From: Pseudobutyrivibrio sp. YE44
Lineage (GTDB): Bacteria > Bacillota > Clostridia > Lachnospirales > Lachnospiraceae
DNA length: 52,782 nucleotides
Direction: 5' to 3'
NCBI RefSeq assembly: GCF_900104335.1
Contig: NZ_FMXT01000015.1
Span: 1-52,782, forward strand
In this document: one piece after another, positions 17,731 to 31,601 of the stretch
Numbering within the stretch: the stretch's first letter is position 1
How the letters are laid out: each line of letters begins with the position of its first letter
The notes under the pieces: model-generated
What the model was told of the DNA's origin: nothing
Database searches by the model: none
What the model saw: only the letters and a program-made list of their open reading frames with translations
Translations under genes and position numbers: made by a program

Positions 17731-17739
17731 TTAAAACAC

Positions 17740-17771
17740 AAAGGCCCTACACAAATGTGTAGGGCCTTTTT
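17740..17771 (+). terminator. Very strong intrinsic terminator after the secreted-protein gene
   Basis: AAAGGCCCTACAC pairs with GTGTAGGGCCTTT around a 4-5 nt loop, followed by T5. It lies 10 bp after the stop codon. Confidence 0.93.
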
Positions 17772-17789
17772 CTTACCTCCTATAAATAC

Positions 17790-17818
17790 GAAAGAGACGC
17801 CAGCGGAGCGTCTCTTTC
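17790..17818 (-). terminator. Hairpin, possible end of the sulfoquinovose operon
   Basis: GAAAGAGACGC pairs with GCGTCTCTTTC around a 7-nt loop. Neither side has a good T run, but the minus strand continues TCTTTCGTATTTAT, so weak termination of the operon that ends at 18003 is possible. The segment 17819-18002 shows only a 21-codon frame and no other candidate. Confidence 0.4.
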
Positions 17819-18002
17819 AAAAGGGAGAATAATGTTATGAAAAAATTGTATCTCTTTCGAGATGAGTATATATTAACTGATATTTATGTTCAAGTTGTGT
17901 GAAGATTGTGAAAAATTTATGAATTGTCTGAGTATTCAGAAAACGATTAAGTGTGGCTAATTCACTAACTTTCTCAAACCATCCCATAAAAACTTAGTTA
18001 TT

Positions 18003-19343
18003 TTAATACTTCACAATTTCAATATCAAGCATGTGAGCCAATTTTTCCAATTCATTACCTATTCTCTTATAAATTACTACGTAGTGTGGTTCCCAACCAT
18101 TTTTGATAGTATCTTCTACTACCTTATCTGCAGGATAATCTGTCTTAACCACAATGGATGTACCATTAAACTGCTTTGGTTTATCTAAAACCTCTCCCTC
18201 TGCAATCATAAATCTAAAGGTTCCATCTGGCTTGCGACCGATTCTAAAAATTGTAGCATCCTTGCAAGCTTCACAACCAAAGTCCATAACAGGACCAATC
18301 TTTCTGTTTGGATGAACTCCAACCTGAGCGCCTGTGTCACAGCGAGCCAAATCACATGATGCCATTCCACAATGCCAATAGGTTATTGTTCCTTCTTTTT
18401 CATCCATTGCTACCGGATCTCCAAAGAAGGTAGAGTGTCCTGTAAACTTTGAACCTACAAACATTGAAAGTGCTCCATATACATCAGCCTCACAACTTGC
18501 AGGAACATCCATAGAATTTAGAAGTGATAAAACCATGCACACTGGAGTTCCAAAGCTTACAAAGAAATCTGGCCAGCATCTAGATGAAACAGCACCAATG
18601 CCACCTTCTGTAATATAGGTTTTGTAGGCCTTATACAGTCTTGCAAAATCCTTTACATTTTTCTCTGGCATAGCCTCAAGACCGACAACTTTAGACTTTG
18701 CCTCTTCAAGGTCTGCCTGGCACTCTTCATCTGTGTATGCCTTTGCCTTATCAATTAGTTCTCTAGCTTCAATAGCCTCTAGAGTCACGCCAAACTTCTG
18801 TAAAATTTCTGCATCCAAAGCTCTGCCAAAACCAAAGCCCTGTGGAGTATGTCCAATAGCAGAAAGCTTTAAGGATTTCAAAGAAACCAAAACTGAGCAT
18901 GCATCAATTGCTGCCTTAAGCTCTGTTACCACATGGTCCTCTTCTGGTGAGCCAAACATAAACTCAAAATTTCCTGCACCTCTAAAGGCTGCAATTGTGT
19001 TGGCTGCAGAATATGCTCCTGTAAGGGAGTTGCTGCGAAGTCTTCCTCCATCAATTACTGGCTCTCTAAGTGTCCAAAGCACGATTGGACACTTAAATCT
19101 TCTGAGAACCTCGCTGGCATAAGCCGCATTAGCAAAAGTGATATTTTGTAAAATCACAAGGTCTGGATTCTTTCCATCAAGATATTTTGCTACCTCATCA
19201 ACTGTTAAAAGTACCTTTTCAGGAGTAACAACCTCTTCTGAAATTTTCTTTAACGTATTTACGGATCTGTTAAACAAATCCTCTGCTGTTTCCATATGAT
19301 ATGTTCCAACACCGATTGGAACGTAAACTACCTGTATTCCCAT
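18003..19343 (-). CDS. L-fucose/L-arabinose isomerase-like protein, last gene of the sulfoquinovose operon
   Basis: A 446-aa cytoplasmic protein of the FucI/AraA-like superfamily (COG2407 type), which interconverts aldoses and ketoses with a divalent metal. Visible features are an N-terminal Rossmann-like half (VVYVPIGVGTYH; PDLVILQNITFAN; PIVLWTLREP), RLRSNSLTGAYSAANT, and the C-terminal TYWHCGMASCDLAR block typical of this group. Of two in-frame ATGs the second (19343) is chosen because AAAGGA lies 8 bases before it, while it abuts the first. It is 26 bp after tctA in the same operon. Known sulfo-transaldolase clusters already have an isomerase of another family, which is also present here. 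This one could act on sulfoquinovose, on an epimer or on another sulfonated sugar. The substrate is unknown. Confidence 0.75.
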   Translation of the reverse strand: MGIQVVYVPIGVGTYHMETAEDLFNRSVNTLKKISEEVVTPEKVLLTVDEVAKYLDGKNPDLVILQNITFANAAYASEVLRRFKCPIVLWTLREPVIDGGRLRSNSLTGAYSAANTIAAFRGAGNFEFMFGSPEEDHVVTELKAAIDACSVLVSLKSLKLSAIGHTPQGFGFGRALDAEILQKFGVTLEAIEARELIDKAKAYTDEECQADLEEAKSKVVGLEAMPEKNVKDFARLYKAYKTYITEGGIGAVSSRCWPDFFVSFGTPVCMVLSLLNSMDVPASCEADVYGALSMFVGSKFTGHSTFFGDPVAMDEKEGTITYWHCGMASCDLARCDTGAQVGVHPNRKIGPVMDFGCEACKDATIFRIGRKPDGTFRFMIAEGEVLDKPKQFNGTSIVVKTDYPADKVVEDTIKNGWEPHYVVIYKRIGNELEKLAHMLDIEIVKY

Positions 19344-19369
19344 TTTTGTCATCCTTTATCTGTAATTTG

Positions 19370-20950
19370 TTATGCTCCCATTTCCATGCTGTCCACATTT
19401 TCTGCCTGATCAAGCTTCTCATGCTCAGCCTCAATAGCTTCAATATTTGCCTGATTGAGAGCTTCAATCTTCTTGTTCATCTTCATAAGAGACACGAGAA
19501 GAAGAATTGTAAGACCTAAAATTACAAGTGAAATAGGACGTCTAAAGAATATTGTGTAATCTCTGTCATAAGCCATAGATGCTGTGACAAAGTTTTTCTC
19601 CATGATGCTTTCAAGAATCATACCAAGCATCAATGGTGTGTTATCAATATCAAGTATTGTAAGTAAGTAACTGAAGATCAAAATTGCTGCACAGATAACA
19701 AGCTCTTTTGTATTTCCTGTTGCTGCAAATGAACCAGCAAAACAGAACATGATAATAAGTGGAGCAAGATATGTGTATCTAACCTGTACAATCTTAGCAA
19801 CTGTTCTTGTCATACCAAGACCAATTGGGAAAAGAAGAATGTTTGCAATAAGACAACCAAGGATGATTGTGTATGCCATCACGCCCTGCTTTGTAAACAT
19901 TGTTGGGCCAGGGGTAATTCCATGAAGGACAAAAGCACCAAGAAGAAGTGCTGTTACACCATCACCAGGAATACCAAGTGTCAAAAGTGGAATCATGGCA
20001 GAACCAACTACTGCATTGTTAGAAGACTCTGCTGCTGCAATACCTTCAAGAGAACCCTTACCAAAATTCTCAGGGTGCTTTGAGGTACGTCTTGCCTCTG
20101 AATAGCAAAGGAACTGTGCAACACCACCACCTACACCAGGCATAGCGCCAAGGATAGATGCAACTGCAGATGATCTAAGTACTGCAGGAATAATTCCTTT
20201 TCTTTCAGTTCTTGTAAGACCTTCACGGTCAATCTTGTTTGCATCGTCAAGTTTTCCACCAGAAAGCTTGAAATCTCTAAGCTTCTGCACAACCTGTGTA
20301 AGAGCAATAAGTGCAATACATGCAGGAAGTAAATCGATACCGTACTTTAAAGTGCTTGTACCAAGAGAGAATCTTGTTACACCAGTAACTGCGTCCATAC
20401 CGATACAAGCCATAAACAAACCAAGCATACCTGAGATAATACTCTTTGGAAGTGAGTTTCCAGATACACCAGCAATAAGTGAAATACCAAGGATACCCAT
20501 TGAGAAGTACTCAACAGATGTAAAGTTAGCTACAAGCTTTGTGATAAATGAAGCACATACCAAAAGCAATACTGCTGAGAATAATCCACCAAATACAGAA
20601 GAGAAAAGTGAAGTATCAAGAGCCTTCTTAACCTTACCTTTTCTAGCAAGTGGATATCCATCAAAGGTTGTAGCAATAGCTGAGTTTGTACCAGGTGTAT
20701 TCAAAGTGATAGCACTGATAGAGCCACCGTACATACCGCCAACGTATACTGCCAAAAGAAGAATGATAGCTGTTGCTGGATCTTCAATTGTGTAAGTGAT
20801 TGGCAACATAAGAATGATACCAAGCATTACGCTAAGTCCAGGTATACAACCTACAATCATTCCTATCACAAGACCAACTAAAATCATAAGCATATTGGTT
20901 GGTGTAAACACCTGACCAGTAGCCTGTAAAATCATTTGTAAATCTCCCAT
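19370..20950 (-). CDS. tctA: Tripartite tricarboxylate transporter large permease TctA
   Basis: A 526-aa membrane protein with about 12 helices that carries solute, probably with Na+ or H+, after delivery by the TctC binding protein. The family signature is clear: VGCIPGLSVMLGIILMLP near residue 32-49, YGGSISAITLNTPGTNSAIAT, GAMPGVGGGVAQFLCY and LGIPGDGVTALLLGAFVLHG. The C-terminal 40 residues are a charged cytoplasmic tail, longer than usual. The ribosome site is GAGAGGGA. The gene is ordered tctC-tctB-tctA within the sulfoquinovose operon. Known substrates of the family are carboxylates, so import of a sulfonated sugar or glycoside would be new, but context favours it. Confidence 0.93.
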   Translation of the reverse strand: MGDLQMILQATGQVFTPTNMLMILVGLVIGMIVGCIPGLSVMLGIILMLPITYTIEDPATAIILLLAVYVGGMYGGSISAITLNTPGTNSAIATTFDGYPLARKGKVKKALDTSLFSSVFGGLFSAVLLLVCASFITKLVANFTSVEYFSMGILGISLIAGVSGNSLPKSIISGMLGLFMACIGMDAVTGVTRFSLGTSTLKYGIDLLPACIALIALTQVVQKLRDFKLSGGKLDDANKIDREGLTRTERKGIIPAVLRSSAVASILGAMPGVGGGVAQFLCYSEARRTSKHPENFGKGSLEGIAAAESSNNAVVGSAMIPLLTLGIPGDGVTALLLGAFVLHGITPGPTMFTKQGVMAYTIILGCLIANILLFPIGLGMTRTVAKIVQVRYTYLAPLIIMFCFAGSFAATGNTKELVICAAILIFSYLLTILDIDNTPLMLGMILESIMEKNFVTASMAYDRDYTIFFRRPISLVILGLTILLLVSLMKMNKKIEALNQANIEAIEAEHEKLDQAENVDSMEMGA

Positions 20951-20964
20951 AATTCAGTCCCTCT

Positions 20965-21426
20965 CTAGAAAAATATTCCTGTAGGCAGTGATACGTTAAA
21001 TACCTTCATAAACAGGAAGTAAATTCCTATTGATGCTGCCAAAATAAAAATATAGATAAACGGTTTTCTTTCACCGCAATAAGCCAAAATAAGTGCAAAT
21101 GTTACAGCTGACGCTGGAATAAATCCAATTAATAAAATAAGTGCCACATAGAGGCAAAGCAGTCCGATAAGCAAAATTGCTGGTTTCTCCTTCTGCCAAT
21201 CAAACTCCACAATCTTTTCTTTTTTTAGCACAAGGCTTTGAATTATAAGAACTATTGAAAAAATAAGCATGATAACCAGGCAAATACCTGGAATGATTCT
21301 TGGGCTTGGTGCACCTGAATCAAAAGCTGGAACTCTAACCTGATATGGCATAAGAAGCAACAGAATCAGGCTTAATCCCCCCATTATTATTCCTGACCAT
21401 AGATTGGTTTTAATTTTAAATTTCAT
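20965..21426 (-). CDS. tctB: Tripartite tricarboxylate transporter small permease TctB
   Basis: A 153-aa protein with four membrane helices, the small subunit that pairs with TctA. Helices lie at about 10-30, 45-65, 80-108 and 112-142. The LLLMPYQVRVPAFDSGAPSPRIIP loop after the first helix and the short cytoplasmic loop are typical. Sequence in this family is weakly conserved; position between tctC and tctA and the helix pattern carry the call. The GAAGG site precedes the ATG by about 9 bases. The gap to tctA is 14 bp. Confidence 0.88.
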   Translation of the reverse strand: MKFKIKTNLWSGIIMGGLSLILLLLMPYQVRVPAFDSGAPSPRIIPGICLVIMLIFSIVLIIQSLVLKKEKIVEFDWQKEKPAILLIGLLCLYVALILLIGFIPASAVTFALILAYCGERKPFIYIFILAASIGIYFLFMKVFNVSLPTGIFF

Positions 21427-21492
21427 GTCGGTTTCCTTCTCTTTTTAATATGAGTGGAGCATTTTATTGCTCCACTCAATTTTTTCTAATTA

Positions 21493-22563
21493 TTATTTGC
21501 TAAGATTTCCATATGCCTTGATTGCCTTTGAGCAAGCATCGTCCATAAACTTCTGAGCGTCATCGCCATATACCTGGAAGTTGTTAAGCATAACTGACTC
21601 AATCCATCCATAGTAATCTTCTGACTCCCAAACCTTCTTCATGATATCTGTCATATCATTGTAGAACTTCTCATCTGCACCAGCGTGAACTGCAAGTGTT
21701 CCACCTGCTGGAAGGATGCAGCTTGAGAAATCGATAGAAGCATCAAGCTCTTTAGCCTTTGCATCACCAACGATTGTAGGAACTGTGATAGCACCGTCTG
21801 GAGTTGTGAAACCTTCGAATGCCTTGTCTGAGAATGCAAGGATTGGAATAAGTGTACCAGCTTCAACCTCATCCTTAGCTGCCTGTGTTGTTCCAACAAA
21901 TACATCAACTTCGCCATTTACAAGGCCCTGCTTCTGCTCAGCGCCTCCGTCATAACCAGAAACAACAGTAAGCTTTCCGCCCTCAAGAGCTATAAGAGAA
22001 CCTAACTCTAAGTGACAGTCTGAAAGTGGATTTCCACCTGACATCTTGATACCTTCTGACTTTGCCTTTGCAAGAATAGATTCAAGTGTCTGATCTGGTG
22101 TTGTGTAAAGAATCCAAGTTCTGTCATCAACTGTTCCGATAGGCTTCATAGCAGTTCTGTCGAAATCAACTTCCTCTGTTCCATACTGCTTACCAAGGTC
22201 ATGTCTGTAGCAAAGACCATAACCAAATACTAAAAGGTCCTTTGTGTTTGCATCTTCATCAGCAAAGAAGGTTGCTGCTGCAAATCCGTCACCGCCAGTC
22301 ATGTTTTCAACTACAAAGTTGTAATCACTCTGAAGACCATTTGCTGTCTTAGCATATGTACGTGCTACAAGGTCAGCTGTTCCACCAGCACCATAGCCGC
22401 AGATAATCTTTACGGTTTCACCACCGTTAGATACCTCTTCCTCTGCGCCAGCCTCGATGGTATCAGCCCCCTCTGATACTGCTGACTCTGTGCCGCCACA
22501 TCCTACTAACATGGATGCAGACATAATTGTTGCAAGTGCTAAGCTTAAAAATCTTTTCTTCAT
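21493..22563 (-). CDS. tctC: Tripartite tricarboxylate transporter substrate-binding lipoprotein TctC
   Basis: A 356-aa extracellular binding protein anchored by lipid. The signal peptide ends in a clean lipobox, MLVGC (Cys22), followed by an acidic linker. The mature fold starts KIICGYGAGGTADLVART, the family's substrate loop with GGxxD. NFVVENMTGGDGFAAA corresponds to the usual NxxGAGG-type element, and VDVFVGTTQAAKDEVEAGTLIPIL to the hinge and second-lobe region. In this operon it may bind sulfoquinovose or its glycerol glycoside (inference from context). A GGGAGGG ribosome site precedes the ATG. A 51-bp AT-rich gap follows the GH31 gene without a terminator, consistent with one transcript. 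Confidence 0.9.
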   Translation of the reverse strand: MKKRFLSLALATIMSASMLVGCGGTESAVSEGADTIEAGAEEEVSNGGETVKIICGYGAGGTADLVARTYAKTANGLQSDYNFVVENMTGGDGFAAATFFADEDANTKDLLVFGYGLCYRHDLGKQYGTEEVDFDRTAMKPIGTVDDRTWILYTTPDQTLESILAKAKSEGIKMSGGNPLSDCHLELGSLIALEGGKLTVVSGYDGGAEQKQGLVNGEVDVFVGTTQAAKDEVEAGTLIPILAFSDKAFEGFTTPDGAITVPTIVGDAKAKELDASIDFSSCILPAGGTLAVHAGADEKFYNDMTDIMKKVWESEDYYGWIESVMLNNFQVYGDDAQKFMDDACSKAIKAYGNLSK

Positions 22564-22614
22564 TTAAAAACCCTCCCATTGTGTTTTTAATTATTTTTAA
22601 AAAATTTTCATTTT

Positions 22615-24621
22615 TTAATTTCCATAAGTACTTCTTACTTCTTCAAAAAGCTTACTTACTTCTGAATTTTTCTTGTAGAAGACTGGTGTATCCCCAAACT
22701 TTGCTTCTACTGTGCAGATGCCCTTCTTATATTCTTTTCCTGTCCAAAGATGAATGAAGCCATCCTCAGGTAGGAATACCTCTCGCTCTGTAACTCCTCC
22801 TTCGTATACAGGAGCGACAAGTACATCTGGGCCAAGTAAGTATTCAAATTGTTCTGTAAAGCATCTATCATCCCCTTGATAGTGCATGAACAATGGTCGC
22901 TGTACCGGTGTACCCTTATCAGCATTTTCCTTAACAAGCTTTTTCATAAGTGGCGAAATCATTGTATAAATATCAGTAAGTCTTGCTACCTGCTTCATAC
23001 AATCCTCATCGTCGTAATACTGGAAGCTTGTATCTGGTCTATTTCCTTCGTGGGTTCTCATAACAGGTGTAAAAGCTGCCATTTCTGCCCATCTAAGGAA
23101 CACTTCCTTTGTTCTACAATTGTCATACAAGGATGTGTATCCACCAATATCACTGTGTGTAATACCAACACCACTCATACCTGCGCTAAGTGCCGCGCAG
23201 ATTACAGTACAAAGACCATCATGTCTGGTAAAATCTACTGACTGGTCACCAGCCCAAAGCAAAGTGCAATACTTCTGTGAACCGATTCCTCCAGCTCTCA
23301 TAAAGTAAACTACATCCCCAAGCTTGCCACTTTCTTTGACAGCATCGTAGTTACATTTAGCCCAAAGTGCTGGCCAATGATTGTGCTCAATCATTGCAGG
23401 CTTTCCACTGTGAAGCACAATATCATCTGTTGGAAGATATTCTCCAAAGTCTGCCATCCAGCCATCGATTCCTATATCGATTGAATACTTTTTGATTACC
23501 TCATCCTTAAACCACTCATAAGCCTCTGGCTTTGTAAGGTCTATCACTCCGCAATCAAATTCACCGAAATCTACAAGATACACAGAGCCATCACTTTTCT
23601 TTGCGAAAACATCCTTTTCAAGACCTTCCTTAAAAAGCATTCCGTCTTTTACCAAATATGGATTAATATATCCAAGATATTTAATTCCTCTCTTGTGAAG
23701 GTCTTTTATTTTCTCTGGAAGATTTGGATACATCTCCTGATGGAAATGCCAATCCCACTGAAGTCTCTTTCCAAAGCTTGTGACTCTCTTACCACACCAA
23801 TCCTGGCACCAAAGACCAGCTACCTTGATTCCACTTTCAAGGGAACGCTCTAATATATCAAAGGATCTTTCGTTTCCGCCCTGAGCACCGATAATCAAAC
23901 CGTTGTAAATCCAATCTGGAAGTTCAATCTGTCGTCCCAGGAAAGCCGTTTCCTTTTCAAGCAGTGATACATAATCCTCTGCAGCTTCCACTCTGATATA
24001 TTCCGGAACCTCCCAAAGCTGAAGCTCGTGGAAGTTGTCATTTCTAAAATCAAAGTCTGCATAAGCTGTACTTTGAACGTGCATGTAATATTTTCTGCTG
24101 GATACAAAAGTTGTCTGTGGGAAATTGGTGTTGTAATAATCGCCACCGCTCATTCCATCCACATCACCCTTCCAAGTAATATAGGTAGTTTTATCTCTTC
24201 CTACCCCAGGCTCCCCTGTCCAAAGAGGGAAGTGTCGTCCCTTCATATCGAAGTAGGACATCTGCTCTCCGCAGCCATATACATGCTCATTGGCGTTAGA
24301 TTTTACTCTAATCCAAAATCTGTTAATCTTATCACTCTTTTCGCTAAATCTTATTGTTGCAAGATCCCCATCAACAGCGATGTTAACTGTTAGGTCTTCA
24401 CCAAACTCCAGCATCACACCATCATCTCTTTTCTTTGCAGCTGTCACGAAAAGAGGTCTTCGTTCTATTACATAGTCTTCAATTTTAAAATTTCCCCTAT
24501 ACATCAGGACGTCTTCCTTGCCCTGTCCAACGTATATCATGGGATGAGTTTGGCTGCTTTCAAAAATGGTTTCTTTGCCATTCTTTAATTTGAAATCAAG
24601 CCCTGATAAACATATCTCCAT
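22615..24621 (-). CDS. yihQ: Sulfoquinovosidase, GH31 (YihQ/SftG type)
   Basis: This enzyme releases sulfoquinovose from its glycosides, such as the glyceryl glycoside left after plant sulfolipid is deacylated. The sequence follows E. coli YihQ (as I remember it) from end to end: CGEQMSYFDMKGRHFPLWT, PGVGRDKTTYITW, ELPDWIYNG, QDWCGKRVTSFGKR, GWMADFGEYLPTD, WAGDQSVD, MRTHEGNRP. Counting from the upstream TTG, the nucleophile is Asp395 in WMADFG and the acid/base Asp463 in AGDQ. The Arg290-x-x-Trp293 pair (GKRLQW) corresponds to the YihQ residues that hold the sulfonate and separate it from ordinary alpha-glucosidases. There is no signal peptide, so it acts inside the cell on imported glycoside. 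The start is ATG 24621 or TTG 24633; both have imperfect ribosome spacing. Confidence 0.93.
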   Translation of the reverse strand: MEICLSGLDFKLKNGKETIFESSQTHPMIYVGQGKEDVLMYRGNFKIEDYVIERRPLFVTAAKKRDDGVMLEFGEDLTVNIAVDGDLATIRFSEKSDKINRFWIRVKSNANEHVYGCGEQMSYFDMKGRHFPLWTGEPGVGRDKTTYITWKGDVDGMSGGDYYNTNFPQTTFVSSRKYYMHVQSTAYADFDFRNDNFHELQLWEVPEYIRVEAAEDYVSLLEKETAFLGRQIELPDWIYNGLIIGAQGGNERSFDILERSLESGIKVAGLWCQDWCGKRVTSFGKRLQWDWHFHQEMYPNLPEKIKDLHKRGIKYLGYINPYLVKDGMLFKEGLEKDVFAKKSDGSVYLVDFGEFDCGVIDLTKPEAYEWFKDEVIKKYSIDIGIDGWMADFGEYLPTDDIVLHSGKPAMIEHNHWPALWAKCNYDAVKESGKLGDVVYFMRAGGIGSQKYCTLLWAGDQSVDFTRHDGLCTVICAALSAGMSGVGITHSDIGGYTSLYDNCRTKEVFLRWAEMAAFTPVMRTHEGNRPDTSFQYYDDEDCMKQVARLTDIYTMISPLMKKLVKENADKGTPVQRPLFMHYQGDDRCFTEQFEYLLGPDVLVAPVYEGGVTEREVFLPEDGFIHLWTGKEYKKGICTVEAKFGDTPVFYKKNSEVSKLFEEVRSTYGN

Positions 24622-24640
24622 AGCAACTACCAACCTTTTC

Positions 24641-25309
24641 CTAATAGTGAAGTTCTTTGTTCTCTCCTAGAAGCCCAGGAAAGGCCCCCTGCTTAATCAG
24701 GGGCTCTCTCTCTGGATGGGCTATCACCCATTTGTTTCTTTGAAGAAGAAGTCTTTCCTCTCCACTCTCAGCCTTTGGCTTCCTATCAAGTGGAGTATTG
24801 GTAGCTCTTGGTAATATTACAATCCCTTTGAATCCTTCATCATTAACTCTCACCGGTGAAAGATGTAGGGTTGTTTGAAACATTTCAATTGCCGTTCCCT
24901 TTGGTACAAAGAAAACCTTGGCATCTTCAACCTTGTAGGTATTATCCTCAGCTATTTCCCAAGTATGACCTAGCACCAACATAAAGTCTGTGATTGCTAC
25001 GTTTATTTCACTGCCCTTGTGATACTCAAAGCCATTGTAGGTTGTGTTTCTTCCATTACAATAGCCAACCTGAATCGGCATATCTCCATAGAAGATTTCC
25101 TTTATGTCCTTTACCACTGGATACTTTTCCATTTCTGAATCAGAAGCCACATAAACATTTCCATTCTCAGGAATATCTGTGTGCTCTTCCATATAATGAA
25201 TCAGCTCTGAAAAATCCTTATCTTTTATTACATTTCCATAGGTCTTAAAGGAATCATCAAACACTGAAGTAATAGCCACATCGTTTACTGCATTTAGTCT
25301 TTCTAACAT
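24641..25309 (-). CDS. DUF4867 family protein, probable sulfoquinovose isomerase (SftI/SqvD type)
   Basis: A 222-aa cytoplasmic protein, cupin-like in its second half (FEYHKGSEINVAITDFMLVLG, then VFFVPKGTAIEMFQTTLHLSPV), with His and Glu residues able to bind a metal. From memory, DUF4867 members in Firmicutes sulfo-transaldolase clusters convert sulfoquinovose to 6-deoxy-6-sulfofructose. That fits its place between the reductase and the sulfoquinovosidase. The frame could start at GTG 25318, but an AGGTGG site 5 bases before ATG 25309 supports the shorter form. The gap to the upstream reductase is 16 bp and to GH31 about 19 bp. Family resemblance is good; the enzymatic role rests on context and recollection. 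Confidence 0.75.
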   Translation of the reverse strand: MLERLNAVNDVAITSVFDDSFKTYGNVIKDKDFSELIHYMEEHTDIPENGNVYVASDSEMEKYPVVKDIKEIFYGDMPIQVGYCNGRNTTYNGFEYHKGSEINVAITDFMLVLGHTWEIAEDNTYKVEDAKVFFVPKGTAIEMFQTTLHLSPVRVNDEGFKGIVILPRATNTPLDRKPKAESGEERLLLQRNKWVIAHPEREPLIKQGAFPGLLGENKELHY

Positions 25310-25325
25310 GTCGGCCACCTACTTC

Positions 25326-26183
25326 TTATCTGTCTCTTACAACCTTGATTGTGGCTCTGAAATCTTCCTTTGCCATACCTCTATCAAGCGCTGTCTGATA
25401 TACATTAAGTGCATTTTCCTCTCCTGGCATCTGAACCCCACACTCATTTGCAAGGTTCACACATATTTTTACATCCTTAGCCATATTCTCAATTGAAAAT
25501 GCTGTTGTGTAGTCCTCTGCCTCAAGCTTCTTTGCCTGACCGTCTAAGTACCAGTTTGAAGCTCCGCCATATGAAACTGCTGTTGAAAAATCTGGAATTG
25601 TGATTCCGTTTGCCTTAGCAAGAGTGATTGTCTCGTTTACACCGTTCTGAATCTGTGAAACAAGAGCGTTGTGACAAATCTTCATAACCAAACCTTTTCC
25701 ATTGTCACCCATTCTGATAACGTTGCATCCCATATACAATAGGATAGGTTTCATTAATTCGAAGATTTTCTCATCGCCACCAACGTATATACCAAGTGTT
25801 CCGTCAATTGCTGCTGGCTTTGACTTTACAACTGGCGCATCAATAAACTGTGCACCTGTCTTTTTAACCATTTCAGAAATCTCCACTGAAACGCTTGGAT
25901 CAATTGTGCTCATGTCGATACAGATCTTTGAAGAATCAAGCACTCCCACAATTGACTGATAAACTGACTTTGAATGTTCACTCTTTGGAACCATAGAAAT
26001 GATAACGTCAGATTTCTGTGCCAACTCTACTGAATCCTTGCAAGGTACTGCACCCTTTGAGGCAAGCAAATCAACCTTTTCCTTTATAAAGTCGAAACAG
26101 TAAACTGTGTCATCATGTTTTTTTACGATATTCTCACACATGGACTCACCCATGATGCCGAGTCCGATAAATCCTATTTTCAT
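25326..26183 (-). CDS. Beta-hydroxyacid dehydrogenase family, probable 3-sulfolactaldehyde reductase (YihU-like)
   Basis: A 285-aa NAD(P)H-dependent enzyme that most likely reduces 3-sulfolactaldehyde to 2,3-dihydroxypropane-1-sulfonate, regenerating NAD+ during fermentation. The N-terminal Rossmann motif is FIGLGIMGESM. The substrate block reads DAPVVKSKPAAIDG where ordinary hydroxyisobutyrate dehydrogenases have DAPVSGG. This matches the layout of YihU (DVPVGRTSANAITG), with Lys in place of the YihU sulfonate-contacting Arg. The catalytic Lys lies in GLVMKICHNAL. ATG 26183 is chosen over 26204 because a GGGGGGA site lies 5 bases upstream. It is second in the operon, directly after the transaldolase that would supply its substrate. 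Confidence 0.85.
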   Translation of the reverse strand: MKIGFIGLGIMGESMCENIVKKHDDTVYCFDFIKEKVDLLASKGAVPCKDSVELAQKSDVIISMVPKSEHSKSVYQSIVGVLDSSKICIDMSTIDPSVSVEISEMVKKTGAQFIDAPVVKSKPAAIDGTLGIYVGGDEKIFELMKPILLYMGCNVIRMGDNGKGLVMKICHNALVSQIQNGVNETITLAKANGITIPDFSTAVSYGGASNWYLDGQAKKLEAEDYTTAFSIENMAKDVKICVNLANECGVQMPGEENALNVYQTALDRGMAKEDFRATIKVVRDR

Positions 26184-26220
26184 TGTATCCCCCCTGATAA
26201 TCAATGTTTTATTAACTCAT

Positions 26221-26904
26221 CTACTGTGCTGTGTTGTCCCATGCTTCACAGAAGGTTTTAAGTCCCTGTGTTGTGTATGCATGCTTCATGCAATCCTGAT
26301 ATACTGCAAGTCCACAAGTAACAATGTCTGCACCTGCTACTGCACAATCAGCAATCTGCTTTGGTGTACGAAGTGCTGCACAGATAATTTGTGTCTTTCC
26401 GTGATATCCATAGTTCTTATAAATCTCTACGATATTCTTAATGTATTCCTTGCAATCCTCTCCGTTCTGCTCTTTCCATCCAATGAATGGTGAAACGAAA
26501 AGTGAACCATTCTTTGCTGGAAGAATTGCCTGAGCTGGCGAAAAGATAAGAGTTACGTTTGTTCTGATACCTTCCTTTTCAAGAATTCTAGCTGCTGCAA
26601 TACCTGACTCGATTGCAGGAATCTTAATAACGAAGTTTGGACTAAGCTTAGCAACCTCTCTTGCCATCTTTATCATATCTTCTGTGTTATCAAAGTGTGG
26701 ATTAATCTCTACTGATACTGGGAACTTATCAACCCCCTCAAGTCCCTCTTCTTTAATCCAGTTAGCAATATCTGTGATTGCTGTCATAAAAGGTTTTTCG
26801 CTCAGCATTATATGTCTTGGATTGGTAGTAACACCATCAATACCAAAAGTGTTGTATGCGAGTTTAATTTCATCTAATTTTGCACTGTCTAAAAAGAACT
26901 TCAT
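26221..26904 (-). CDS. 6-deoxy-6-sulfofructose transaldolase (SftT/SqvA type)
   Basis: A 227-aa class I transaldolase of the short TalC-like type. It should cleave sulfofructose, pass the dihydroxyacetone part to glyceraldehyde-3-phosphate, and yield fructose-6-phosphate plus 3-sulfolactaldehyde. Schiff-base Lys94 lies in FVIKIPA, Asp6 in FFLDSA and the family motif at 24-32 reads GVTTNPRHI. Ordinary transaldolases have NPSL or NPTL here, so Arg-His is a deviation and may mark the sulfonated substrate (inference). It is the first gene of an eight-gene operon, preceded by a consensus promoter and two copies of the repressor operator. The surrounding sulfoquinovosidase and YihU-like reductase make a housekeeping pentose-phosphate role unlikely. 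Confidence 0.87.
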   Translation of the reverse strand: MKFFLDSAKLDEIKLAYNTFGIDGVTTNPRHIMLSEKPFMTAITDIANWIKEEGLEGVDKFPVSVEINPHFDNTEDMIKMAREVAKLSPNFVIKIPAIESGIAAARILEKEGIRTNVTLIFSPAQAILPAKNGSLFVSPFIGWKEQNGEDCKEYIKNIVEIYKNYGYHGKTQIICAALRTPKQIADCAVAGADIVTCGLAVYQDCMKHAYTTQGLKTFCEAWDNTAQ

Positions 26905-26920
26905 TTGTGTGCCTCCTCCT

Positions 26921-26941
26921 TTAATTAAATCTCTTAATTAA
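26921..26941 (-). promoter_or_regulatory. Operator O1 of the transaldolase operon
   Basis: TTAATTAA-ATCTC-TTAATTAA, 17 bp upstream of the transaldolase ATG and covering the predicted transcription start. The same 8-5-8 layout recurs at 27010, 28509 and 29812. A repressor bound here would block the polymerase. The ROK protein encoded at 28.6 kb is the obvious candidate. Confidence 0.75.
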
Positions 26942-26946
26942 TTATC

Positions 26947-26975
26947 ATTATCATCATCTACTTGGTCTATGTCAA
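26947..26975 (-). promoter_or_regulatory. Sigma-A promoter of the sulfoquinovose operon
   Basis: Minus strand: TTGACA (26970-26975), 17-bp spacer, GATAAT (26947-26952). The predicted start near 26940 falls in operator O1. Confidence 0.8.
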
Positions 26976-27009
26976 TCATTTTGATACCATTTTCAAGTTT
27001 TCGTAAATT

Positions 27010-27030
27010 TTAATTAAATCTTTTAATTAT
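27010..27030 (-). promoter_or_regulatory. Operator O2 upstream of the same promoter
   Basis: TTAATTAA-ATCTT-TTAATTAT lies 35 bp upstream of the -35 box. Its centre is 89 bp from the O1 centre, so two bound repressor dimers could loop the promoter (inference). Confidence 0.65.
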
Positions 27031-27066
27031 TTTTTATAAAACTTTACTAATTGATTCTGACTTATC

Positions 27067-28491
27067 CTATAAAACCCCAAATCCTGACCAAATAAGCATT
27101 GTCAGGTAGCCTACTGCCACTGCTGCAACCATTCTTGCACCGCAAACAACTAGGCCATTCTTTAATAATTTTTCTGGATCCAATCCATATCCCACTGAAA
27201 TAGCTCTGACACTAACTGGTAGTAACGATTCGAAATTCATGCCCATAGCTGTAGTGAAAATATATGGTATTGGATTCAACCCCATTTGTGTTGTAACCCC
27301 TATCACTATAGGTAGTGTAACAGCTGCAGACACTGTACTGTTTGTCATTTCGGAGATAAAACATGCAAAAACGGTGAAAATGAAAATTGTGCCTAAACCA
27401 CCGCTTAAATTGGCCTTTGAAATAAGTGTTGCAATAGATTCATTAGCCCCTGAACCAACAAGAATTTGCCCTAATGCAAGGCCTCCTGCGAAGAGTAGAA
27501 GCATGCCCCACATAACTTCTTTTTGAGCCTTATCCCAGGTAAGAAGCATCTCTTTTTTCTCAGCAGAAACAATAACGAAATTTAAAAATCCTAGAATCAA
27601 AAACAAATATGCTGGAACAAGTCCTGGAAGAAGCTCTGCATATAAAGGTCTGATAAAAGAACCTAACATTGCTGCAATAAACAATACAAGACTAATCTTT
27701 TCATCCTTTTTCATTGGGCCTAGCTCTTCATAGCACTTTTCAAAATACTCCTTGGTGCCTGATAAAGAGTTAGTTTCCAGTGGCTTCAAAAGCATCACTA
27801 CAAGCACCACTGCAGTGGCAATAATTGTATATGGCAACATTCTGGTAATCCAGTCCACGTACATAAACTCTTTTCCTGTATAGTCCTCTATGAAAGAAAT
27901 TGCAGTTATGTTCATGGCTCCACCTAAAGGTGTTCCTGCTCCTCCCACCTGAGAGCCCCAGGCAATGGCACAAAGAATTGGTGTAGCCACCTCACATTTT
28001 TTAATATCCTTATATCCTGCTGCTGCAAGCATCGATACCGCAATAGGAGTAAAAATAGCTACCACTACAACGTTTGGCATCATGTTAGACATTACTACTG
28101 CTGCCAAAAGCCATACGGTTATTTGAGACTTCATGGATGGGCCTATAAGAGAAAGTGCCTTTAAGGATATTCTCTTATCCAATCCTATCTCCGACCAAGG
28201 TGCTGTAAGTAAGCATGATCCAAAAATCAGTATGATACTTCCAGAAGCATATTGGGAAATCACACTATCCATTGGCACCATATTAAAGAGTGCATTTAAG
28301 GCTACTGGTAGCAATGCTGTAACCGTAATGTCCACCGGTCTTGTGACCCACCAATATATCATCCAGGTGCCTACACCTATTCCCTTTGCAGCATTAAGTT
28401 CGGTGACGCCAGAACTTCCCAAGGCAAAAACAATCAACGCAAATAGCCCCGGCCCCATTAATAAATTAATAATTCTTTTCTTGTTGTCCAT
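27067..28491 (-). CDS. DASS/SLC13 family anion transporter, probable DHPS exporter or sulfonate carrier
   Basis: A 474-aa membrane protein with about 12 helices of the divalent-anion:sodium symporter family. Both pseudo-repeat motifs are visible: SNMMPNVVVVAIFTPIAVSM in the first half and SEMTNSTVSAAVTLPIVIGV in the second (SNT-like hairpin tips), plus WGSQVGGAGTPLGGAMNI. Family members move sulfate, dicarboxylates or other anions. The operator 18 bp before its ATG ties it to the sulfoquinovose regulon, so the fitting jobs are export of dihydroxypropanesulfonate or uptake of a sulfonate. It has its own RBS (GGGGAAGG) and sits between the repressor gene and the catabolic operon. Family is firm; substrate and direction are inferred. 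Confidence 0.85.
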   Translation of the reverse strand: MDNKKRIINLLMGPGLFALIVFALGSSGVTELNAAKGIGVGTWMIYWWVTRPVDITVTALLPVALNALFNMVPMDSVISQYASGSIILIFGSCLLTAPWSEIGLDKRISLKALSLIGPSMKSQITVWLLAAVVMSNMMPNVVVVAIFTPIAVSMLAAAGYKDIKKCEVATPILCAIAWGSQVGGAGTPLGGAMNITAISFIEDYTGKEFMYVDWITRMLPYTIIATAVVLVVMLLKPLETNSLSGTKEYFEKCYEELGPMKKDEKISLVLFIAAMLGSFIRPLYAELLPGLVPAYLFLILGFLNFVIVSAEKKEMLLTWDKAQKEVMWGMLLLFAGGLALGQILVGSGANESIATLISKANLSGGLGTIFIFTVFACFISEMTNSTVSAAVTLPIVIGVTTQMGLNPIPYIFTTAMGMNFESLLPVSVRAISVGYGLDPEKLLKNGLVVCGARMVAAVAVGYLTMLIWSGFGVL

Positions 28492-28508
28492 GATAAAAAC
28501 CTTCCCCT

Positions 28509-28529
28509 TTGATTAAGACTTTTAATTAA
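28509..28529 (-). promoter_or_regulatory. Operator in front of the DASS transporter gene
   Basis: TTGATTAA-GACTT-TTAATTAA, same 8-5-8 layout, 18 bp before the ATG. An AATAAT -10 overlaps its edge (28529-28534), but no convincing -35 was found at 16-18 bp. Confidence 0.7.
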
Positions 28530-28535
28530 TTATTC

Positions 28536-28568
28536 CGAAAAAATAGGAGAGATTTACTTCTCCCCTAC
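28536..28568 (-). terminator. Intrinsic terminator after the ROK regulator gene
   Basis: Minus strand: TAGGGGAGA pairs with TCTCTCCTA (one A-C mismatch, short loop) and continues into T6. It separates the regulator transcript from the DASS gene. Confidence 0.7.
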
Positions 28569-28588
28569 TATTCCTTCAGGTATTAATT

Positions 28589-29794
28589 CTATGCATAAAA
28601 CCATTCGTTAAGCGCTGTAGCTAAAGGCTCAATGTGATTCTCACGAATGCTGTTTTCCGACTTGATAAACACACCTTCCTTCAGGCTACTGTCATATTCT
28701 TTATATTTCTGTATGAATCTCTTATAGATGCCTTCTACATCAAACATGTACCCCATCAGTATGACCTTTCCTGGATCTAACAGGGTTCTATAATTCCTCA
28801 TAGAGAAAGCTAACATCTCTATTTTAGAATCAAAGATATCCAGAATCTTTTCGTCTGATATCTCCGCCCACTCATCAACGTTTTTGTAGGTCATTTCGTT
28901 GCCTTCATTAAACCACTGTTCCAGGCCTGGCATCTTCTTTGGAGCCTTTTCATACTCCGCCTGAATGTCGTCCATAATTGCATGGGTGGAAATCTCTGTC
29001 TCAAGGCAACCCTTCATTCCGCAGTTGCATGGCTTTCCATCTTTATTAACAGAAACATGTCCGATTTCTGCTGACATGCCATTGGCACCACCATAGATAC
29101 AATGGTCTGTAATAATGGCAGAGCCAACACCCGGGCCCCATTTCAAAATAATGAAGTTGGCATCCTCTTTTCCGTCTCCAAAAAGAATCTCGTTTTCAGC
29201 AGATGTCTTAAGGTTGTTTTCCACAACAACTCTAATGCCAAGCTTTTCTGACAAAATCTTGCCCACAGGAACTGGCTTGGTCCAGATACTAAAGGAATTT
29301 ACACTGATACCTTTTTCCCTGTCCACAAGACCTGGAACAGATACTGCTGCACCTAAAACATCATTCTTTGATATGCCCTTTCCCCACATTATCTTGGCAC
29401 TTTCTACCGCGATTTTTTCTAGGAAGATTTCAGGCTTTCCTTTCTTTTCAGTTAAGATTGTGATGCTGTCTAGAACCAATCCCTTCAGGTTGGTTATAGA
29501 AATGTACGTCTCATCCGTTTCAATGCAAATGCACAAAATATATTTGTACAACGGGTTGATATCCACAAGAATCTTCTTGCGCCCGGCTCGTTTTTCCTCT
29601 ACAGCCTCTCCAAGCTCGTTAATTATGCCCTCATCAATTAACTCATTGCAGATAAGTGTTACGCTGGCTGCAGTTAACCCAGCTTTTTTCGCTATATCCT
29701 TTCTGGACATAGCCCCCTCATTATTTAGGATGTGAAGTATCGCAGATCTGTTATTATTTTTTACATTTTCCAGATTAATTCCTTGATATTTCAT
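28589..29794 (-). CDS. ROK family transcriptional repressor (XylR/NagC type)
   Basis: A 401-aa sugar-responsive repressor. The N-terminal winged helix (about 15-75) reads AILHILNNEGAMSRKDIAKKAGL then ASVTLICNELIDEGII. The ROK domain (about 85-395) has AAVSVPGLVDREKG, the GPGVGSAI glycine loop, GGANGMSAEIGHVSV and the zinc site CNCGMKGCLE. Two features link it to the sulfoquinovose genes: it lies next to them, and the TTAATTAA-type operator is in its own promoter as well as in theirs. The likely inducer is sulfoquinovose, sulfofructose or a phosphorylated intermediate (inference). It has its own promoter and terminator and is probably autorepressed. It is not an enzyme of the pathway; a true ROK kinase lacks the helix-turn-helix. 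Confidence 0.9.
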   Translation of the reverse strand: MKYQGINLENVKNNNRSAILHILNNEGAMSRKDIAKKAGLTAASVTLICNELIDEGIINELGEAVEEKRAGRKKILVDINPLYKYILCICIETDETYISITNLKGLVLDSITILTEKKGKPEIFLEKIAVESAKIMWGKGISKNDVLGAAVSVPGLVDREKGISVNSFSIWTKPVPVGKILSEKLGIRVVVENNLKTSAENEILFGDGKEDANFIILKWGPGVGSAIITDHCIYGGANGMSAEIGHVSVNKDGKPCNCGMKGCLETEISTHAIMDDIQAEYEKAPKKMPGLEQWFNEGNEMTYKNVDEWAEISDEKILDIFDSKIEMLAFSMRNYRTLLDPGKVILMGYMFDVEGIYKRFIQKYKEYDSSLKEGVFIKSENSIRENHIEPLATALNEWFYA

Positions 29795-29811
29795 ATTCCC
29801 CTCTCTGATAT

Positions 29812-29832
29812 TTATTTAAAGCTTTTAATTAA
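29812..29832 (-). promoter_or_regulatory. Operator in the repressor's own promoter
   Basis: TTATTTAA-AGCTT-TTAATTAA, 18 bp before the repressor ATG and over its predicted start point. Degenerate half-sites (TTAATTAT, TGATTAA, TTAATTCA) follow at 29875-29903, a possible second, weaker site. Confidence 0.7.
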
Positions 29833-29837
29833 TTACT

Positions 29838-29866
29838 ATTATGGTGTCTACAATCCCTGATGTCAA
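29838..29866 (-). promoter_or_regulatory. Sigma-A promoter of the ROK repressor gene
   Basis: Minus strand: TTGACA (29861-29866), 17-bp spacer, CATAAT (29838-29843). The layout relative to the operator is the same as at the transaldolase operon. Confidence 0.75.
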
Positions 29867-29907
29867 CAATATTTTTAATTATTTCTGATTAACTTTTAAT
29901 TCATTAT

Positions 29908-29942
29908 ATAAAAAAAACGCCTCTCTTTCGAGAGGCATTTTA
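29908..29942 (-). terminator. Intrinsic terminator after pyruvate kinase
   Basis: Minus strand: GCCTCTC pairs with GAGAGGC around a 4-nt loop, then GTTTTTTTT. It lies about 16 bp past the pyk stop and insulates the repressor gene. Confidence 0.88.
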
Positions 29943-29957
29943 TTATGTCATATTCTA

Positions 29958-31373
29958 TTACTGAATAGTCTCAACCTTGATTGTGTTTGTGTTACCAACG
30001 TTACCGTCGATAGGACCACCTGTAAGAACAACCATGTCGCCCTGCTTTAAGTTAAACATCTGCTGAACACGGTTTGTTGCATGGTAGAACATAACATCAA
30101 GAGACTTGAATCTGTCTACGAGAACTGGTGTAACACCCCAGCTAAGAGCAAGTCTTCTCCAAACCTTCTTGTCTGTAGTCATAGCTACAACATCTACTGG
30201 GCAACGGAAACGGCTAACACGCTTTGCTGTGTAACCAGACATTGTGCAAGCAACGATTGCCTTTGCTTCAACATCGATAGCCATTGAACATGTTGAATGG
30301 CAAACAGCATCTGCTGTGTTGATAACAGCGATATCTTCCTTGTGGAAACGACCTTCGTAGTTGATGTCGTTCTCTGTAGTCTCAGCGATTTCTGCCATTG
30401 TTGCAACAGCCTGAACTGGGTATTTACCCTGAGCTGACTCGCCTGAAAGCATGATAGCTGATGTACCATCATAAACAGCGTTAGCAACGTCAGAAATCTC
30501 AGCACGTGTAGGACGTGGATTTGTAATCATAGACTCAAGCATTTCTGTTGCTGTAACAACGCTCTTACCAAGAGCACGAGCCTTTGCGATAAGCTCCTTC
30601 TGAACAGCTGGAAGCTTAACGAATGGAATCTCAACACCAAGATCACCACGGGCTACCATGATACCATTTGCAATCTCAAGGATTTCCTCAACATTGTCAA
30701 CACCTGGCTGATTCTCAATCTTTGCGATAACGACGATATCCTTACCACCGTTTTCATCAAGGAAAGTTCTAAGCTCTTCCATATCCTTCTTTGTAGAAAC
30801 GAAAGAAGCTGCAACGAAATCAACTTCGTTCTCGATACCGAAAAGGATATCCTTCTTGTCCTGCTCTGAAAGATAAGGACCAGACATAACCTTGTTAGGG
30901 AAGCTCATAGACTTCTTGTTTGACATTGTTCCGCCTGTTGTACACTTTGTGATAACGTCATGTCCCTGGATGTCTGTAACCTCGAAGAACACGATACCAT
31001 TACATACTGAAAGTGTGTCACCAACTGCAAGATCCTTGTGAAGGTTCTTGTGTGTAACTGAAACACGTGTCTCATCACCTTCAACATCATCTGTTGTGAA
31101 GATGAATGTGTCGCCTTCTTTAACAGTAACTGAACCGTCTTTGAAGGTCTTAATACGATACTCTGGGCCCTTTGTATCAAGCAAAATAGCGATTGGAAGG
31201 TTAAGCTTCTTGCGAACCTTTTTAACCAAATCCATCTTCATGCCCTGCTCCTCATGATCTCCATGGGAGAAGTTCATTCTTGCTACGTTCATACCGGCTT
31301 TTGCCATCTCTGTAAGAGTTTCCTCATTCATGCTGGCTGGACCGATTGTACAAATAATTTTTGTTTTTCTCAT
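29958..31373 (-). CDS. pyk: Pyruvate kinase
   Basis: Final ATP-forming step of glycolysis, phosphoenolpyruvate plus ADP to pyruvate. The 471-aa sequence has the opening KTKIICTIGPAS, NFSHGDHEE, the active-site block IVVIAKIENQPGVDN with the catalytic Lys and Glu, GIMVARGDLGVEIP, and the C-terminal allosteric domain. It lacks the extra PEP-utiliser domain found in Bacillus-type enzymes, so the length is that of the short form. A GAGAGG site precedes the ATG. It is a single gene with its own promoter and terminator. Glycolysis at this point would also take fructose-6-phosphate made by the neighbouring sulfo-transaldolase route. Confidence 0.97.
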   Translation of the reverse strand: MRKTKIICTIGPASMNEETLTEMAKAGMNVARMNFSHGDHEEQGMKMDLVKKVRKKLNLPIAILLDTKGPEYRIKTFKDGSVTVKEGDTFIFTTDDVEGDETRVSVTHKNLHKDLAVGDTLSVCNGIVFFEVTDIQGHDVITKCTTGGTMSNKKSMSFPNKVMSGPYLSEQDKKDILFGIENEVDFVAASFVSTKKDMEELRTFLDENGGKDIVVIAKIENQPGVDNVEEILEIANGIMVARGDLGVEIPFVKLPAVQKELIAKARALGKSVVTATEMLESMITNPRPTRAEISDVANAVYDGTSAIMLSGESAQGKYPVQAVATMAEIAETTENDINYEGRFHKEDIAVINTADAVCHSTCSMAIDVEAKAIVACTMSGYTAKRVSRFRCPVDVVAMTTDKKVWRRLALSWGVTPVLVDRFKSLDVMFYHATNRVQQMFNLKQGDMVVLTGGPIDGNVGNTNTIKVETIQ

Positions 31374-31435
31374 TCAAAAAACCTCTCTATCTTTATCTTT
31401 AAACAACACACGTTTAAAAAATCGAAATCCGTTCT

Positions 31436-31464
31436 ATGATAACACCAAATGGCATTTCAGTAAA
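31436..31464 (-). promoter_or_regulatory. Possible promoter of pyk
   Basis: Minus strand: TTTACT (31459-31464), 17-bp spacer, TATCAT (31436-31441), giving a leader of about 55 nt. The rest of the 228-bp gap to glgD is AT-rich with no further element seen. Confidence 0.4.
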
Positions 31465-31601
31465 CAACAGATTTCTATTATTTGTCCGTAAAGCCCCCTA
31501 ATATCTCCCAACATTATTACTTTTCTATTTTATCATAAAGAATAACATATGTCCTTGTACGAAGTGTGAAAATAACGGTTCATTTTTGTACTATTTGCCA
31601 A

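Follow-up and report, generated by a model that had tools for sequence, protein, structure and literature searches.

How do bacteria that ferment sulfoquinovose (SQ), the sulfur sugar of green plants, bring it into the cell? This question is raised by a locus at positions 18003-29794, minus strand, of a 52,782-nucleotide stretch of DNA from Pseudobutyrivibrio sp. YE44 (contig NZ_FMXT01000015.1; the whole stretch is called the window below), where ten co-directional genes encode, in this order, a ROK-family protein, a DASS (SLC13-like) anion carrier, SftT, SftR, SftX, a GH31 glycosidase, TctC, TctB and TctA of a tripartite tricarboxylate transporter (TTT), and SftI. SQ production is put at roughly 10 billion tons per year (PMC12890257; papers given by PMC number are cited from extracts throughout), and SQ feeds gut bacteria whose 2,3-dihydroxypropane-1-sulfonate (DHPS) ends as hydrogen sulfide via Bilophila (PMC11968277). 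For Firmicutes that use the sulfofructose-transaldolase (sulfo-TAL) pathway, the importer is named SftA, with no type stated in the extracts (PMC12330013; PMC11659671), or uptake is assigned to a predicted ABC system.

We propose that TctABC belongs to a distinct TTT clade of anaerobic gut and rumen bacteria dedicated to sulfosugars, which would take a carboxylate-free substrate, sulfoquinovosyl glycerol (SQGro) or SQ, through a rebuilt pocket, would be a main door for SQ in Faecalibacterium prausnitzii, Clostridium symbiosum, Oscillibacter and their kin, and would have been kept across several pathway exchanges. We consider this proposal fairly probable. The overall picture of the locus, a ROK-controlled sulfo-TAL operon in which TctABC imports SQGro or SQ and the DASS carrier exports DHPS, appears highly probable, with both import and export read from gene context.

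The proposal is carried first by the recurrence of the gene neighborhood. A scan of genome contigs with the window's TctC yielded 32 TctC loci (53-87% identity) in Lachnospiraceae, Oscillospiraceae and Treponema, and sulfoglycolysis genes lay beside TctC in all 32 (L040 was taken as belonging to the genome of L068 and L057 to that of L088, each counted once). Hosts include F. prausnitzii APC923/61-1, C. symbiosum ATCC 14940, C. clostridioforme AGR2157, C. aminophilum, Oribacterium, Oscillibacter, Pseudobutyrivibrio ruminis and Treponema zioleckii. Under the stricter thresholds, SftI was found in 29 loci, ROK in 27, SftX in 25, SftT and SftR in 18 each and transketolase in 8, and at least one of GH31, GH31b (a second GH31 type), SftI and SftT was present in 31. 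The exception, L083, shows no more than a piece of GH31 where the contig ends, and L088 shows only SftI and ROK. The original prediction had suggested searching other genomes for tctC next to yihQ-type GH31 genes, and this arrangement is indeed common (GH31 in 28 of the 32 loci, GH31b in 2). Its view that TctABC is new here does not hold, as the system is not particular to this genome and forms a widespread clade that includes F. prausnitzii (L063) and C. symbiosum (L073), two species for which sulfo-TAL expression has been reported (PMC8397734). A chance neighborhood is ruled out by this recurrence, whole or in part, in every TctC locus. As a separate observation, a contig filed as 'Bacteriophage sp.' from human faeces (L032; MT835892.1, 1-15821) carries SftT, SftR, SftX, GH31, TauE, TctCBA, SftI and ROK, and shares 99% identity in TauE with F. 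prausnitzii L063; it is therefore probably a bacterial contig misfiled as phage.

Two less biased searches gave the same association. Among 397 genomes of a family sample, SftT orthologues (48-100% identity, against a background of at most 45%; E ≤ 1e-40) occurred in 25 and TctC (E ≤ 1e-20) in three, all among those 25 (p 2e-4, if genomes were independent); TctC and SftT are adjacent in the window and in G293, and lie at the starts of two contigs in G205. Among 391 genomes of a class sample, with at most three TctA candidates scored per genome, TctA was found in 28, and besides the window's own only that of G504 exceeded 60% identity, on a contig with the order TctCBA-GH31-SftT-SftI plus transketolase genes. 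By contrast, SftT, SftI and GH31 had no match in the 19 other TctA loci read (33-45% identity) of the 48 listed, of which L104 and L129 are short contigs and L131, L135 and L137 show weak reductase or transketolase matches. In a TctA tree of 49 rows (31 sulfo-linked and 18 other clostridial; L032, L040, L065, which is cut by a contig end, L088 and L089, a contig without TctA, were left out), the sulfo-linked rows form one clade with support of 100/100. On this clade and the unlinked outgroup loci, a general citrate-type TTT placed here by accident was rejected. One outgroup locus deserves mention in its own right: in L137:13118-15768, a distant TctA (33%) has an SftR-like reductase (33%) and transketolase halves (39-44%) in its vicinity, and the cluster may serve another sulfonate or a sugar acid.

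The substrate can be narrowed further by the catabolic routes that accompany the transporter. Eighteen of the 32 TctC loci have only SftT and eight have only transketolase, with six having neither, mostly cut by contig ends. Along the TctA tree (19 transaldolase rows including the window and eight transketolase rows), four changes of route label are required, three of which are forced by well-supported branches. The sulfo-TAL and sulfofructose-transketolase (sulfo-TK) routes have SQ glycosides, SQ and sulfofructose in common but differ in the sulfonate released, the transketolase (C2) route yielding isethionate rather than DHPS (PMC11659671). Since nothing but the sugar end is common to both routes, and TctABC is kept across the switches, its substrate is most likely SQGro and/or SQ, and we infer that the Tct family extends to sulfonated sugars. 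The argument from placement in the original prediction, that TctABC takes up SQ or an SQ glycoside, is thus strengthened by the relatives' loci, the clade and the route switches, while its premise that Tct transporters are known for carboxylates is only partly right: TTTs for sulfolactate and for alginate oligosaccharides are in print, although those substrates still carry a carboxylate. Export of DHPS or isethionate by TctABC was rejected on the combination of locus linkage and retention across the route switches. Binding-protein-dependent systems are an uptake design. A further locus, L120 (G504:C112), combines a deep-branching TctCBA with GH31, SftI and both SftT and transketolase genes, and perhaps encodes a bifurcated route such as that reported for Faecalicatena (PMC11659671).

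Alternatively, TctABC might import another anion, such as citrate, another carboxylate, sulfolactate or DHPS, and be a mere neighbor in the regulon. Most characterized TTTs bind di- or tricarboxylates (PMC5812351), and the TctC fold and the GGxxD loop are conserved, both of which speak for this possibility. However, linkage to the sulfoquinovosidase and SftI runs through the whole clade, across at least two Bacillota families and one Spirochaetota species; TctABC persists where the C3-sulfonate route gives way to the C2 route with its isethionate product (PMC11659671); and the genome encodes just one pyruvate formate-lyase (PFL)-like enzyme that might use DHPS. We therefore regard import of another anion as improbable.

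Import of SQGro and/or SQ by TctABC can also be set beside the importers of other SQ clusters. In the family sample, the remaining 24 SftT loci (L033-L056) contain GPH carriers in five cases, SSF carriers in two, ABC parts in six, Tct in one and none of these in ten, although one of the ten, L034, has Tct on another contig (L057) and another, L048, joins the GPH cluster under a looser grouping. Among the 32 Tct loci, a GPH carrier occurs only in L058, and SSF or ABC systems above thresholds occur in none. In the window's own genome, no GPH carrier was matched at 1e-20, and the TctA of the operon is the sole TctA found. GH31b is present in 12 of the 24 loci (e.g., L033:5061-7091, L036:6470-8428, L042:10703-12709, L046:6516-8495, and kin), five of which also have a GPH symporter; in all six aligned sequences, Tyr-Gln replaces the Lys-Arg that precedes the site's Trp in YihQ and in the window's enzyme, and the substrate of GH31b may be different. 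Two more loci of this set stand apart. In one, an SftT locus that has no SftX, SftI is immediately followed by a glycyl-radical enzyme (PF02901; L041:6059-8338) that may be a DHPS lyase or dehydratase. The other, L035:7539-10679, has an SftT orthologue (78%) near a relative of LarA-type nickel-pincer isomerases/racemases, with SftI, SftX and GH31 all unmatched in the locus; another use of the transaldolase is possible.

The DASS carrier is found in the window, L033, L058 and L059, and a TauE-type exporter is found in none of these four loci; across the 32 Tct loci, DASS occurs in two, a TauE-type exporter in 18, and both together in none. Such a distribution would be expected if DASS takes the exporter's place, and we propose DASS, with moderate confidence, as a candidate DHPS exporter. 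The roles could in principle be reversed, with DASS importing SQ and TctABC being auxiliary or serving a second sulfosugar glycoside. In the window, DASS directly follows the repressor gene; in L033, DASS occurs in the absence of Tct, albeit together with a GPH carrier; and in L058, from P. ruminis, there are two types each of GH31 and of importer, all of which would agree with such a reversal. The distribution of DASS and TauE, by contrast, fits an exporter stand-in (with the reservation that the DASS loci are close kin), and we judge an importing DASS unlikely.

Several findings nevertheless weigh against these two transport roles, import by TctABC and export by DASS. Because sulfo-linked TctC patterns served as its seed, the genome scan is blind to distant TctC, the less biased family and class searches have few positives (three and two genomes), and the class-sample TctA outside G504 are just 28-44% identical, so that a substrate cannot be transferred from other TTTs. 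Two of the eight loci with transketolase only, L061 and L084, are truncated at contig ends and may still hold SftT. Ten of the 24 other SftT loci show no recognized importer of the types sought, and replacement of one importer by another is therefore not seen everywhere; in L058, where GPH and TctABC coexist, one of them may serve another role; and L072 and L078 have weak ABC-permease matches (30-35%) at their edges, under looser thresholds only. As for export, the window, L033, L058 and L059 are close kin, which reduces the DASS evidence to one event in one lineage, and an unlinked TauE-type exporter is encoded elsewhere in the window's own genome.

Further observations concern the binding protein itself. 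TctC matched no Pfam or NCBIfam model at 0.001 and is only distantly related to solved TctC proteins (best E 6e-10 as a single sequence and 3e-13 as a profile). Nevertheless, its AlphaFold model (pLDDT 88, built from 32 sequences) retrieved TctC/Bug-type proteins for all of the first 17 PDB matches in Foldseek, with TM-scores by target of 0.71-0.84. Sulfo-TctC sequences were aligned without L032, L040, L057, L088 (split into two parts that lie in different frames) and L089 (incomplete). In the loop motif P-F-X-A-G-G-X-X-D of TTT binding proteins (PMC5812351), G60, G61 and D64 are invariant (32/32), F is replaced by Y57 throughout (32/32), and P is kept by most of the clade, the window having G56 instead. 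In a second segment, D146, D147, R148 and T149 are invariant (32/32) and W150 is kept in at least 90%; in a profile alignment, D146-W150 lies opposite Ala-Thr-Val-Pro-Asn of TphC and the terephthalate-binding protein, placing RTW beside VPN. In the alginate TTT binding protein, a Pro that is conserved among such proteins is essential for binding (PMC13390454), and it seems to be this Pro that is replaced in the sulfo clade, the alginate protein itself lying outside the alignment. The altered pocket segment suggests a changed ligand head group, which falls short of proof for sulfonate binding.

By gene content, the operon is a complete fermentative sulfo-TAL operon, as the original prediction had claimed, and the enzyme assignments rest on close solved or characterized relatives (Table 1). 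All the genes that it named are present with open reading frames, including the DUF4867 protein SftX, but three members were left out: SftI, DASS and ROK. The closest PDB entry to the GH31 enzyme is 6pnr, SftG of Eubacterium rectale, a reported functional sulfoquinovosidase (PMC11968277). The motifs GKRLQW (from 288) and GGYT (from 497) align with 6pnr and correspond to GKRVMW and GGYT in Escherichia coli YihQ, which bears out the predicted YihQ motifs. Their Arg, Trp and Tyr, presumably the sulfonate-binding residues, are retained, and the matching model PRK10426 is titled 'alpha-glucosidase' and is what we take to be the YihQ model. No signal peptide was seen by eye; the enzyme is probably cytosolic, and its glycoside must therefore be imported first.

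Table 1. Features of the sulfoquinovose locus, with positions in the window.
Feature	Position	Strand	Basis or remark
Two terminator-like hairpins	17740..17819	-	13 pairs each; after SftI
SftI, sulfoquinovose isomerase	18003..19352	-	NF048012 full length, E 5e-121, 404 bits; Fucose_iso_C above cut-off
TctA, large membrane subunit	19370..20950	-	Pfam TctA, E 2e-133
TctB, small membrane subunit	20965..21426	-	Pfam TctB, E 3.5e-16
Hairpin between tctC and tctB	21451..21478	-	minimum free energy -19.4 kcal/mol, z -6.95
TctC, solute-binding lipoprotein	21493..22563	-	lipobox LVGC (by eye); sulfosugar TTT clade
GH31 sulfoquinovosidase	22615..24633	-	PRK10426 932 bits (cut-off 553); PDB 6pnr 1099 bits; YihQ 759 bits
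SftX, DUF4867 cupin	24641..25318	-	Pfam DUF4867; PDB 9gyy/9gyz, E 2e-70
SftR, probable sulfolactaldehyde reductase	25326..26204	-	NAD_binding_2/11, beta-hydroxyacid dehydrogenase family; adjoins SftT
SftT, sulfofructose transaldolase	26221..26904	-	Pfam TAL_FSA; PDB 8bc3 (BmSF-TAL), E 5e-83
Candidate operator 3	26920..26939	-	downstream of promoter-like site 26975-26947
Candidate operator 2	27009..27028	-	upstream of promoter-like site 26975-26947, which precedes SftT
DASS (SLC13-like) anion carrier	27067..28491	-	CitMHS/Na_sulph_symp; TIGR00785 134 bits, below cut-off 198.6
ROK-family repressor	28589..29794	-	Pfam ROK and winged helix; relative in 27 of 32 TctC loci
Candidate operator 1	29811..29830	-	between promoter-like site 29866-29838 and ROK

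SftI falls below the curated cut-off of NF048012 (404 of 700 bits), which might mean that the substrate of the cluster is a sulfosugar different from SQ. However, the GH31 enzyme is nearest to 6pnr and keeps the YihQ Arg, Trp and Tyr sites, and the SftI proteins of C. symbiosum (424 bits) and F. prausnitzii (414 bits), for which sulfo-TAL expression is reported (PMC8397734), score alike, making another sulfosugar very improbable. Because the SftI proteins of L063, L073 and P. ruminis L058 (407-424 bits) and of L036 (387 bits) are likewise below it, the cut-off seems to be set too high for these SftI relatives. In SftT, the stretch VTTNPRHIM is letter-identical to that of BmSF-TAL, the solved Bacillus megaterium sulfofructose transaldolase, so that the altered NPRHI motif noted earlier is real. 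SftR could be called YihU-like, as predicted, only in a broad sense: it scores 154 bits on the YihU model (cut-off 348), and it does better on the models for tartronate-semialdehyde reductase and HIBADH, though without reaching their cut-offs either. Its relatives stand beside SftT in other loci, and its substrate is assigned by gene position; its annotated start is TTG, with an ATG at about 26183. For the SftX family, mutarotase activity was not detectable (PMC11968277). The genome contains only one PFL-like enzyme, and DHPS is therefore probably the end product.

The operon lies between a pyruvate kinase gene (29958-31373, called by eye) and terminator-like hairpins, and the genes from SftT through SftI are spaced by 7 to 66 bases. 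The ROK protein is probably its regulator. A 20-bp candidate operator, AATTAARAGMTTTAAWTAAA, has three exact copies in the window, all within the operon's two control regions; because the pattern was derived from these sites, the exact matches arise by construction, and the evidence lies in its near-absence elsewhere in the genome and in sites in four of 15 scanned relatives. The rest of the 3.24 Mb genome has one more such site, at two mismatches, and a reversed control pattern likewise gave one. Among the relatives (≤3 mismatches, without a shuffle control), sites were located at DASS or immediately ahead of it in L058 (one mismatch), before GH31b in L033 and L036 (two each) and before SftT in L077 (three), and the other 11 have none. 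Promoter-like sites precede ROK and SftT, which makes two transcription starts, ROK-DASS and SftT to SftI, likely; the two sites are best taken as leads, since the scan total of 41 is barely above that of its shuffles (mean 34.6, sd 5.9). The hairpin between tctC and tctB may stabilize the mRNA and raise tctC over tctBA. All 30 tctC-tctB spacers folded, including the window's, reach -10 kcal/mol or lower (L062, L087 and L088 were omitted for length and L089 for want of a TctB match); some exceed 200 bases, and only the window's was shuffle-controlled. No Rfam family reached its gathering score within 17000-32000.

Taken together, the gene assignments make the following scheme the most probable one. 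The lipoprotein TctC would capture SQGro and/or SQ outside the cell, and TctAB would carry it inward, probably driven by a cation gradient. GH31 would then cleave SQGro to SQ in the cytosol, and SftI would convert SQ to sulfofructose in the second pathway step, with SftX probably assisting a sugar-ring or anomer step. SftT would transfer a three-carbon unit onto glyceraldehyde-3-phosphate to give fructose-6-phosphate and sulfolactaldehyde, and SftR would reduce the latter to DHPS with regeneration of NAD+, the DHPS most likely leaving through DASS. If so, the carrier clade defined here would give metagenome studies a marker gene common to the transaldolase and transketolase routes, and its TctC supplies a binding protein ready for assay.

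The operon closely resembles the known sulfo-TAL (sulfo-SFT) clusters of E. rectale, F. prausnitzii, Enterocloster clostridioformis and C. symbiosum, which have the same SftG/YihQ GH31, SftI, SftT, SftR and SftX. TctABC occupies the same place as in the window in F. prausnitzii L063, C. clostridioforme AGR2157 L064 and C. symbiosum L073, which have a TauE-type exporter where the window has DASS. E. clostridioformis YL32, for which an sft cluster has been reported, converts SQ to DHPS at about 1:1 (PMC12330013), and we count this growth in favor of the scheme as a whole. Its locus tags for YihQ (09300) and SftI (09270) leave room for five genes if the tags step by five, and an exporter, tctCBA and one more gene would fit, from the tags alone. 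No paper tying a TTT to sulfoquinovose was found in the openly licensed literature searched, with Frommeyer et al. 2020 outside its scope; PMC10507020 contains both terms, but in its extracts the TTT is for sulfolactate. The Frommeyer paper is said to be the founding report of sulfo-TAL and might describe the C. symbiosum transporter.

Other known importers resemble TctABC in part. SlcHFG of Roseovarius and Chromohalobacter is also a TTT for a sulfonate, sulfolactate (PMC5812351), a C3 compound that, unlike SQ, retains a carboxylate. The alginate-oligosaccharide TTT of Vibrio sp. C42 has a binding protein for acidic sugars, supported by isothermal titration calorimetry, a crystal structure and docking (PMC13390454); its substrates are uronic acids with carboxylates, which the proposed substrates of the sulfo clade lack. 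The Smo-type ABC importer (PMC11659671; PMC13219744) and, from gene context, the GPH and SSF carriers of other SQ clusters likely do the same job but belong to unrelated families. Sulfo-TAL clusters and TTTs for sulfolactate and alginate oligosaccharides were thus known, and what strong context evidence adds to them is a TTT clade tied to sulfoquinovose.

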